DNA from: Treponema sp.
GTDB lineage: Bacteria; Spirochaetota; Spirochaetia; Treponematales; Treponemataceae
Assembly (NCBI GenBank): GCA_018385315.1
Contig: JAHAZJ010000085.1
Coordinates: 1 to 62,924 of the forward strand
Reading direction: 5' to 3'
DNA: 62,924 nt
The notes under the pieces are model-generated. The model did no database searches. It was not told the origin of the DNA and was given only the letters and a program-made list of their open reading frames with translations. Of the stretch, positions 30,155-33,085 are shown piece by piece; the stretch's first letter is position 1; each line of letters begins with the position of its first letter. The position numbers and the translations under genes were made by a program.

Positions 30155-31195
30155 CTATAATCTGCTTTCCTGCTTTTTTAATCTCTTTGTTTCTGCGCGA
30201 ATATATTTTTTCTGTTTGCGGCTTAATTTTTTTCCCCGTTTAATGGTCATATCCTCTTTTTTGAAATTTAATAACCAGTAAGAAAGGAATACGGAAATGA
30301 TACAAAGAATAGTAGCCATAATTACAGGTACATAACCTGGCAAATTTTCGAATGGCAATTTAAAGTTCATACCAAAGAAACTTGTTATAAATGTTGGAGC
30401 CATCATAACAAGGTTGATGATAGCAAGTTTTTTCATAACAATGTTCAAATTGTTGGATGTAACAGAAGAGAAGGCATCCATAACACCAAAAATAATATTA
30501 GAATATGTGTCGGCCATTTCAATTGCCTGTCGGTTATCAATACTAACACCTTCTACAAAATCAATATCTTCTTCGTCAAATTTAATCAGCTTTGTAACTT
30601 TCATTTTTTGAAGTAGAAGGGCGTTACTTCTAAGGGATGTTGTAAAATATACCAAAGATTTTTCTAACCCAAGCATTAACATAATTTCCTGGTTTTCGAT
30701 TTCTTGACGCATTTCATTTTGAATGCTGGTAGATCTTCTGTTGATTTCTTTAAGATAACGCAGAAAGTTTAAGTTTGCCCGGTTCATAATCTGTACAATA
30801 AATGATGGGAAATCTGTCAGGCGAACATTTTTTACCCGGTTATTTCCAAAATCTTTTAGAATTTCGCAGTCTGTCCAGCAAAGTGTGATAATGGTTTTTC
30901 CTTTAATAATAATGCCCACAGGAACTGCAAAATATGGTGTTTCTGCATTTGGATCGTAAACAGGAACCCGAACAATAGTAAGGATATATCCTTCACCATC
31001 TTCCATACGAGAAAGTTCATCGGGGTCTAAAATATCTAGAATATGATCTTGATCAATGTCATATTCTTTTTGAAGTTCTGCTGTTTCATCTCTGTTTACA
31101 TTTCGGGCGTCAATCCAAACAGGTTTTCTGCCGTCAAGTTCATCTTTTTTTGTCTTTGTAAATTGACCGTCAATTTGCTGCCAGTATGTAATCAT
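30155..31195 (-). CDS. corA: CorA-family magnesium/divalent cation transporter
   Basis: A 346-residue inner-membrane channel. It has a cytosolic N-terminal domain, a long helix, two C-terminal membrane helices and the selectivity motif GMN in FFGMNFKLPFENLPGY. The ATG at 31195 is preferred because AAGGTG (31209-31204) lies 8 bases upstream; a GTG at 31204 would begin inside that ribosome-binding site. The stop of a 39-codon upstream ORF touches the ribosome-binding site, which suggests translational coupling. Confidence 0.93.
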   Translation of the reverse strand: MITYWQQIDGQFTKTKKDELDGRKPVWIDARNVNRDETAELQKEYDIDQDHILDILDPDELSRMEDGEGYILTIVRVPVYDPNAETPYFAVPVGIIIKGKTIITLCWTDCEILKDFGNNRVKNVRLTDFPSFIVQIMNRANLNFLRYLKEINRRSTSIQNEMRQEIENQEIMLMLGLEKSLVYFTTSLRSNALLLQKMKVTKLIKFDEEDIDFVEGVSIDNRQAIEMADTYSNIIFGVMDAFSSVTSNNLNIVMKKLAIINLVMMAPTFITSFFGMNFKLPFENLPGYVPVIMATILCIISVFLSYWLLNFKKEDMTIKRGKKLSRKQKKYIRAETKRLKKQESRL

Positions 31196-31208
31196 GCTAT
31201 TCACCTTT

Positions 31209-31328
31209 AAAATAATAATATGTGCGTAAATAGCCTTCTGAATAATCGGGGAAAAATTAGAGAGATTTATTCAAGAGGCTTTTTATTGTGATTAATGAAT
31301 GTATGGGATAACTCGACCCGCCTTCCAT
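31209..31328 (-). CDS. 39-residue upstream ORF, possible corA leader peptide
   Basis: On the minus strand AGGAGG (31341-31336) is followed 7 bases later by ATG and an open frame of 39 codons, MEGGSSYPIHSLITIKSL and onwards, ending TAA at 31211-31209. The C-terminal part is basic and hydrophobic (IFPRLFRRLFTHILLF). The stop codon is 13 bases before the corA start and abuts the corA ribosome-binding site. The ribosome-binding site is the best in this neighbourhood, so translation is plausible. No family is recognised. It may be a regulatory leader or a small membrane protein. Confidence 0.55.
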
Positions 31329-31341
31329 AAAGAAGCCTCCT
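31275..31341 (-). promoter_or_regulatory. Hairpin sequestering the leader-ORF start upstream of corA
   Basis: On the minus strand GAGGCTT-C-TTTAT (31339-31327) pairs with ATAAAAAGCCTC (31286-31275): 12 bp with one bulged C. It occupies four bases of the AGGAGG and the A and T of the ATG. The distal arm lies inside the ORF, so ribosomes would have to open it. No known magnesium riboswitch consensus was recognised. Confidence 0.55.
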
Positions 31342-31398
31342 GTTTAAGATTTGTGCAAATAAATTGCTAGAAACATAATATCATAAAAAAAGCTTTTA

Positions 31399-31843: not shown

Positions 31844-33085
31844 TTATTTTGCAAGACAGTTATCCAGGTCTTTTGTAATCTGTTCTTTGTCTAAGTGGCG
31901 ACCAATAATAACAAGCTTTATCATTCGATCACCAACTTCAGGATCCCAATCTTTTTTCATTTCTGGTTCTTCTGCAAGAACTTTTTCCTGTTCTTCTTTT
32001 GGACAAGATGCAAGCCAGTTTCCAGAGTACCCGGCAGAAATCTGGCGGCCACTTGTTTCAAGAACATATGCCATTTCTTCTTCATCGCTGAACCAGATAA
32101 CACCTTTTGAACGGATAATATTTCTTGGCCATTTTGCGGCATACTGGTCTAACTTATTGCGGTCAAATGCCTTTCTGCGGTAGTAAACGAAAGAGCCGAT
32201 TCCATATTCATCTTCGCTTTCACCTTCATGTTTGTGTTCATGATGATGGTGATGATGTCCGTGTTCGTGTTCATGTTCGTGGTCATGATCACATTCTTCA
32301 CCTTCTTCGTGATGATGTCCGCATTTTTCACAAACCTCATCGTCGTCGTCATCATCATCATGGTGTTCATCATGTTCTTCTGCTTCATGAGCTTCAAGTT
32401 CTTTTACCCAGCCTGCAGAAGCATAAACTGTTTCAAAATCAAAGCGGTCTGTTCCAATAATATCTTCAACAGGAACTTCGCAGCGAGTTGTTTCAATAAC
32501 TTTAACTTCTGGCTGAATTTTATTAATTACTGCACGAACCATTTTCATCTGTTCATCTGTAACAAGGTCCCGCTTGTTTACGATAAGAGTAGAACAGAAT
32601 TCAATCTGCTGAATAAGGAGAGATTCAATATCTTCTTCATCAATGCCTTCTTTAAGCAAAGATTTTCCTTCGTCAAATTCATCAACAAGGCGGGCTGCAT
32701 CAACAACGCCAACTACGTTATCAAGTTTACCAATTTCAATTGTTTCAATAGCCTGGGCAATTGGCATTGGTTCACAAACACCAGAAGCTTCAATTAAAAT
32801 GTAATCATATTTTCCAGTTTTCATCAGGTTTTCAATTCCCTGAACCATGTCTGACTTTAATGTACAGCAGATACATCCGTTTGTAAGAGGTACAATGCTG
32901 TTTGTGTCTGTAATGTTTGCTTCTTTAGAAATAAGACGTTCATCAACGTTTACTTCACCAATATCATTTACAATAACTGCAACCTTATATCCCTTCTGAT
33001 TTGTAAGAACTCTATTAAGAAGTGTAGTTTTTCCAGCACCCAAGTAACCACAAAGTAATGTAATTGGAATTTTTTTCTTAGCCAT
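31844..33085 (-). CDS. COG0523 metal-chaperone GTPase (CobW/ZNG1 type)
   Basis: A 413-residue GTPase. Walker A is GYLGAGKTTLL, the metal site CICC is at residues 71-74, and a GTP-specificity NKRD is visible (IVNKRD). Between the two domains (about 235-300) is an extreme His/Asp/Glu linker with runs such as HDHEHEHEHGHHHHHHEH and CEKCGHHH. Relatives deliver zinc or other metals to client enzymes, and such linkers bind metal. GGAGA precedes the start. No zinc-uptake operon or Zur box was recognised around it. Confidence 0.9.
   Translation of the reverse strand: MAKKKIPITLLCGYLGAGKTTLLNRVLTNQKGYKVAVIVNDIGEVNVDERLISKEANITDTNSIVPLTNGCICCTLKSDMVQGIENLMKTGKYDYILIEASGVCEPMPIAQAIETIEIGKLDNVVGVVDAARLVDEFDEGKSLLKEGIDEEDIESLLIQQIEFCSTLIVNKRDLVTDEQMKMVRAVINKIQPEVKVIETTRCEVPVEDIIGTDRFDFETVYASAGWVKELEAHEAEEHDEHHDDDDDDDEVCEKCGHHHEEGEECDHDHEHEHEHGHHHHHHEHKHEGESEDEYGIGSFVYYRRKAFDRNKLDQYAAKWPRNIIRSKGVIWFSDEEEMAYVLETSGRQISAGYSGNWLASCPKEEQEKVLAEEPEMKKDWDPEVGDRMIKLVIIGRHLDKEQITKDLDNCLAK

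Follow-up and report, generated by a model that had tools for sequence, protein, structure and literature searches.

Does the short reading frame in front of corA in a Treponema control that gene, and if so, what would it respond to? The window is the whole stretch of DNA that was analysed (62,924 nucleotides); its source is a gut or rumen Treponema of the T. bryantii group, and the nearest relative of its corA comes from a horse-faeces genome. A translational attenuator of a magnesium transporter had been proposed for this locus in a preliminary description. That idea is well supported by comparison with related loci: an attenuator of corA made of RNA and leader peptide is very probable. The coupling of leader and corA on which the proposal was built does not stand.

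The leader and the competing arms in the window

The features are sorted from corA to the start of the leader. All are on the minus strand.
30155..31195 (-): corA, CorA Mg2+ transporter family (Pfam PF01544, 171 bits).
31196..31208 (-): SD/start region of corA, with the Shine-Dalgarno (SD) AAAGG and arm 4, GTGAATAGC.
31226..31234 (-): GCTATTTAC, which pairs with arm 4 at the start of corA in the state C structure.
31232..31247 (-): arm 3, GATTATTCAGAAGGCT, a partner of arm 2, whose 3′ end overlaps the sequence that pairs with arm 4.
31257..31259 (-): frame-0 stop, located a median 15 nt past the pairing region of arm 2 (46 loci).
31257..31328 (-): leader ORF, frame 0, 23 codons, MEGGSSYPIHSLITIKSLLNKSL followed by the stop; a homologous leader lies 5′ of corA in 71 distinct loci.
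31264..31286 (-): arm 2, ATAAAAAGCCTCTTGAATAAATC, which pairs with arm 1 or arm 3.
31292..31294 (-): conserved +1-frame stop TAA, the 4th +1 codon after CCC (codon 4 in 41/46).
31305..31307 (-): putative +1 slip site, the Pro codon CCC with A as the next base (CCC in 46/46 YP leaders).
31327..31342 (-): arm 1, leader SD and start; its pairing with arm 2 spans 15 bp and has one bulged C.
31336..31341 (-): leader SD AGGAGG, core of arm 1; GGAGG is kept in nearly all leaders.

The leader start, an ATG at 31328-31326 placed 7 nt after AGGAGG (31341-31336), is as it had been described. The length is not: the frame had been given 39 codons and a stop abutting the corA ribosome-binding site, and its TAA (31259-31257) is in fact separated by 61 nt from the corA ATG (31195). 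The leader is thus not coupled to corA by overlap in the window genome. The hairpin with a bulged C that had been reported to mask the leader SD and start is real. It is formed by CAGGAGGCTT, the bulged C31332 and TTTAT (31342-31327), paired with ATAAAAAGCCTCTTG (31286-31272) inside the leader ORF, and is just one among three competing pairings. Arm 3 (31247-31232), which had been missed, is an alternative partner of arm 2 and also competes for arm 4 around the corA SD and start (31204-31196).

The leader part folded alone gives -18.5 kcal/mol, and the fold of the single sequence stands out only slightly (z -2.07 for 216 nt, z -1.02 for 136 nt); the case for the leader and for a switch rests on comparison of loci and not on this fold. 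The SD core of arm 1 is paired in 62-68 of 68 loci. Covariation of the stem 1:2, which had been suggested as a check, is clear at a single position (C-G 52, T-A 8, T-G 6); it is thin because arm 1 is fixed by the Shine-Dalgarno sequence, and with so little variation it was dropped as support.

A gene encoding a His-/Asp-rich CobW-like GTPase, possibly metal-related, is found upstream of corA on the same strand (31844-33085, minus).

The leader family and its two reading frames

corA loci were drawn from GTDB genomes and the same genus, and their upstream regions were retrieved. In the 71 loci of the genus that carry the leader, the ORF, its start and its SD are conserved, the peptide is kept with third-base variation and indels are multiples of three. 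The leaders are sorted according to their peptide. P-type (46 loci, the clade of the window): M[DE]xGSS(S)YP[IL]... H-type (16 loci, YH in place of YP) and other (9 loci): leaders such as MDSGSSSGYHQC.., found before more distant corA genes. The leader of T. bryantii itself, a rumen commensal, is P-type. Codon periodicity, proposed earlier as a check, supports coding and brought out an unexpected change from frame 0 to +1 at CCC. As in ermC-type attenuators, the sequences thus point to a translated leader ORF that has its own SD.

The same conservation could be read as that of an aptamer, the conserved GGGTCGAGTTATCCCATACG being a ligand- or Mg2+-binding RNA and not a coding one. Very high base conservation around TCGAGTTATCCC and strong competing stems would suit a riboswitch. 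Third positions that vary before CCC, indels in multiples of three, an invariant start codon and SD and a frame 0 that never holds a stop do not, and the GGG-CCC pairing is lost in some leaders (GGT, GGA or AGT opposite CCC). The M-box (ykoK) riboswitch, RF00380, also regulates Mg2+ transporter genes from a 5′ leader; neither the window nor any of 196 genomes of the genus matches it. Rfam scans, one of the whole window and a permissive one of the spacer, gave chance matches only, which bears out the earlier remark that no known Mg2+ riboswitch motif is present. The aptamer was rejected because of the codon-wise variation and the indels, and is very improbable.

In P-type leaders, the Pro codon after Tyr is always CCC, a codon used for 5% of Pro in 36 large ORFs of the window. 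It is followed by A in 40 and by T in 6 leaders, and the next codon is ATA (38), TTA (6) or AGT (2), ATA being 16% of Ile codons. In the +1 frame, a stop is reached within six codons of CCC in all 46. The five leaders that have lost the usual one (L057, L058, L065, L073, L082) have another stop nearby, and in L042, L060 (TTAGAC) and L095 (ATAGCT) the +1 stop is retained as TAG despite different frame-0 codons. One of these, L060, is otherwise P-like and has CAC in place of CCC.

Substitutions were counted site by site on a 41-leaf corA protein tree. Of the three codons before CCC, two change fastest at their third position. CCC has 0, 0, 0 changes. The following codons, taken in the +1 register, have 1, 1, 11 / 9, 3, 8 / 14, 13, 11 and, at the stop, 5, 2, 3; sites beyond have mostly 8-18. 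In the +1 register, the Tyr codon after CCC is therefore slow at positions 1-2 and fast at position 3, and the stop codon is slow. The +1 stop is present in 41 of the 41 leaves, as compared with a maximum of 38/41 in simulated evolution with frame 0 kept open, although the leaders are related, the loci are not independent and the tree tests correct for kinship only in part. In frame 0, none of 552 codons after CCC is a stop (most frame-0 ORFs have 22-24 codons), as against 27 stops in the -1 frame; together with the conserved +1 stop, this argues that frames 0 and +1 are both held. Non-synonymous changes exceed synonymous ones after CCC in both frames, and the ratio of synonymous to non-synonymous changes mildly favours +1 (27:54, versus 18:67 in frame 0). 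A -1 frameshift was discarded, as its frame has no stop pattern; that frame served as control. H-type leaders have neither CCC nor a constraint on a +1 stop.

A conserved slip codon at which the coding signature changes frame is what a programmed +1 frameshift would be expected to leave. This two-frame signature is best read as a functional +1 shift at CCC, a reading that is rather probable.

The tRNAs that could read CCC were compared by similarity tests, mostly in draft genomes. tRNA-Pro(GGG) was not found in 16 P-type genomes, where the tests gave only UGG with or without CGG, one genome having no match at all; it was found by such tests in six genomes with an H-type or other corA leader or an mgtE leader, and in none of two further such genomes. 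In the window's own genome, UGG alone was seen. In a P-type genome assembled in two contigs (G077), a family search with tRNA genes read by ARAGORN gave UGG and CGG only. CCC is thus probably decoded in the P-type clade by the shift-prone tRNA-Pro(UGG). Native E. coli tRNA-Pro(UGG) shifts +1 in vitro fastest and most on CCC-A (PMC4519876). The CCC-leader clade appears to have lost tRNA-Pro(GGG), when P-type genomes (e.g. G000, G042, G077) are compared with H-type or other ones (e.g. G049, G155, G044).

Ribosome position and the corA Shine-Dalgarno

In the 46 P-type loci, the distance from the +1 stop to arm 2 has a median of 12 nt (10th-90th percentile, 8.5-12), which is about the leading edge of a ribosome terminating at this stop. 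Frame 0 is open through arm 2. The two stops thus bracket arm 2.

The consequence for corA was computed by mask folding: nucleotides covered by the ribosome were excluded, the cost of opening the corA SD was calculated for 42 non-overlapping P-type loci, and shuffled spacers were used as null. For a ribosome at the frame-0 stop (state C) this cost is 6.5 kcal/mol, and for one at the +1 stop (state B2) it is 2.2. The mean difference (C-B2) is +4.3 kcal/mol versus -0.5 for shuffled spacers, the highest of 60 null means being -0.008, and 33 loci are individually significant. In the window alone, the switch is modest (+2.5 kcal/mol, shuffled fraction 0.03), and the minimum-energy fold of the open state still retains the arm-4 stem. 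A switch is also predicted with the ribosome parked at CCC (state B), and in H-type and other corA leaders (mean 1.7, null maximum 0.18). The predicted state of the corA SD thus depends on the stop at which the ribosome sits: open for the +1 stop, closed for the frame-0 stop. As in ermC, mutually exclusive arms would expose or hide it according to the position of the ribosome.

The coding leader, its codon bias, the bracketing stops and the predicted switch come from comparison of loci; slipping itself, the signal, the part played by TrmD and the sign of the response are read from sequence and are given as conditionals. We lean, with some reserve, towards an ErmC-like translational attenuator in which a +1 slip at CCC-A decides where the ribosome ends up and low Mg2+ gives more transporter. 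Initiation at AGGAGG/ATG would yield the peptide M-E-G-G-S-S-Y-P, after which tRNA-Pro(UGG), reading CCC by wobble, may slip one base forward at CCC-A. A slipped ribosome would terminate at the +1 stop, some 12 nt short of arm 2, and leave this arm free; arm 2 would pair with arm 3, the corA SD would open and corA would be made. A ribosome remaining in frame would cross arm 2 and end just past it, so that arm 3 would pair with the corA start and corA would be shut. With no ribosome, the 1:2 and 3:4 pairings would also hold corA shut. Low Mg2+ would raise slipping, or pausing at Tyr-Pro, and hence the amount of transporter. A possible route is through Mg2+-dependent TrmD and m1G37 on tRNA-Pro; TrmD is encoded, but this route is a guess and a somewhat doubtful one.

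The preliminary description had arranged the same elements differently: a single hairpin masks the leader start, and a leader reaching the corA ribosome-binding site activates corA by translational coupling. The hairpin exists, and four relatives (L032, L036, L057, L073) do show an overlap of 26 nt between the leader and the start of corA; there, corA is read in +1 with respect to the leader, and the two ATG are 64, 67, 67 and 70 nt apart. The 61 nt of spacer in the window argue against coupling, and in the folding of the 42 loci, a ribosome that reads as far as the leader stop is predicted to close corA instead of opening it; such coupling is accordingly hard to credit. Transcriptional control is a little less improbable. 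Leader translation would then act on RNA polymerase, which would terminate within the leader either intrinsically or with Rho, in the manner of corL and mgtL of Salmonella and E. coli. This is the known mode of enterobacterial corA leaders as outlined in PMC11552253, and it might apply to mgtE leaders, where there is no SD switch. In most corA loci, by contrast, the predicted switch acts on the SD.

mgtE leaders, the signal and known systems

A related leader (e.g. MGDGSSTSGSYPANIKFVLSDLSAGFRL) precedes mgtE, a Mg2+ transporter gene of an unrelated family (PF01769), in 25 of the 30 loci read in other genomes. In mgtE leaders of the same genus (L241-L249, L255-L270), the motif is M[GP]D[GD]S[SN]xGSYP[GA].., of which DGSS..SYP is common to the corA leaders. 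The Pro codon is always CCG and not CCC, there is no conserved +1 stop and no significant SD switch was found. Extension of the CCC/+1 idea to mgtE leaders and to H-type corA leaders is therefore not supported, and slipping cannot be the whole sensor of the leader family. The peptide is the common and older part, and the frameshift looks like a P-type addition. Since the substrate is common to the unrelated CorA and MgtE transporters, Mg2+ is the natural candidate signal, and a likely one.

In one genome (G056 contig C1, about 104700; L284 / L241), the leader directly precedes an N-terminally truncated mgtE and no corA match is found; this is possibly a recombination or an assembly chimera.

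The distribution of the peptide bears on an explanation that needs no frameshift. MxxGSSxSY[P/H] would pause the ribosome at Tyr-Pro/His in low Mg2+, by the nascent chain or by codon rate, and so free arm 2 according to the logic of ErmCL or MgtL, the +1 stop being a safety device for accidental slips. The motif is common to P-type corA, H-type corA and mgtE leaders, the last two without CCC. The switch works in silico with the ribosome parked at CCC and in H-type and other leaders. The Pro codons of MgtL are moreover described as sensing Mg2+ by slow decoding via m1G37 in the relevant part of a review (PMC6335274). A stall alone leaves unexplained the CCC in 46/46 leaders, the +1-register Tyr codon TAY with its stop and the 12-nt spacing between stop and arm 2, and we judge it unlikely. 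The slip at CCC-A remains the preferred reading for P-type leaders.

The arrangement resembles that of ermC and ErmCL: a leader ORF over arm 1, competing 1:2, 2:3 and 3:4 pairings, and a ribosome position that opens a downstream SD. The downstream gene differs, being here that of a Mg2+ transporter, and no drug is implied. Ketolides can act on ermC via frameshifting on the leader (PMC5009743); ribosomes are carried further downstream in that case, whereas the +1 shift proposed here would take place at a conserved CCC and bring the ribosome to an early stop. In pheL, a +1 shift also occurs at a CCC of a leader peptide (CCC_UGA, 15% in E. coli) and was judged incidental (PMC5009743); here, the +1 stop is conserved across a clade.

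MgtL and CorL of Salmonella and E. coli are likewise short leader ORFs before a Mg2+ transporter gene, and there the leader ORF senses Mg2+. According to the sections of the sources that deal with them, the Pro codons of Salmonella MgtL sense Mg2+ through TrmD, which needs Mg2+, and m1G37 (PMC6335274), and E. coli corA is regulated by intracellular Mg2+ via its leader region, translation of corL being important (PMC11552253). MgtL has Pro at 3, 5 and 7, a Pro-rich codon pattern (PMC6335274, same section) that M[DE]xGSSYP.. lacks. The output there is Rho-dependent transcription termination, and these sections describe neither a frameshift nor a bracketing stop pair.

A literature search, with little cover of subscription journals, gave no description of such a leader in treponemes. 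In prfB and antizyme, a +1 programmed frameshift gauges cellular state, and prfB has a Tyr codon before the slip codon. The locus studied here is like prfB in its Tyr codon and in the proposed use of a +1 shift as a gauge; unlike prfB and antizyme, where the shift lies in the main protein, frame choice here would position the ribosome on an RNA switch.

The widest reading is a natural metal sensor, in which a +1 frameshift at CCC-A chooses between stops bracketing a switch arm; it would have become possible after loss of tRNA-Pro(GGG) and would derive from an older Mg2+-responsive peptide of corA and mgtE. We regard its chances as even. If true, it would be one of few bacterial leader ORFs in which frameshifting is used purposefully, and the supply of magnesium would be linked directly to the fidelity of the reading frame (tRNA-Pro, m1G37, TrmD), a ribosome slip perhaps serving as the magnesium gauge of the cell. 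The peptide motif common to leaders of two unrelated Mg2+ transporter families is an independent pointer to the signal.

Some corA loci and pattern matches fall outside this family. The leader is absent before L048, L053 and L068 and before most of the 50-58% identical corA homologues examined. L048, L053, L068 and L040 are close corA relatives without the leader ORF; L040 perhaps retains a remnant of the later stem. Pattern matches away from corA (L279-L283, L285) are ordinary coding sequence, or else short ORFs that lack the leader motif. TATAAT upstream of the leader is not enriched above shuffles in this AT-rich DNA. A second copy of a P-type leader (L015; G008 contig C215:140-214) is found at a contig end, its downstream gene being cut off. 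The 9-mer TCAGTTTGA, absent from the window's own leader region, is conserved in 18 P-type corA upstream regions, 37-57 nt 5′ of the leader ATG. It lies directly 3′ of a -10-like sequence, is also found before the leaderless L048 and L053, and is perhaps a transcription start or a binding element.
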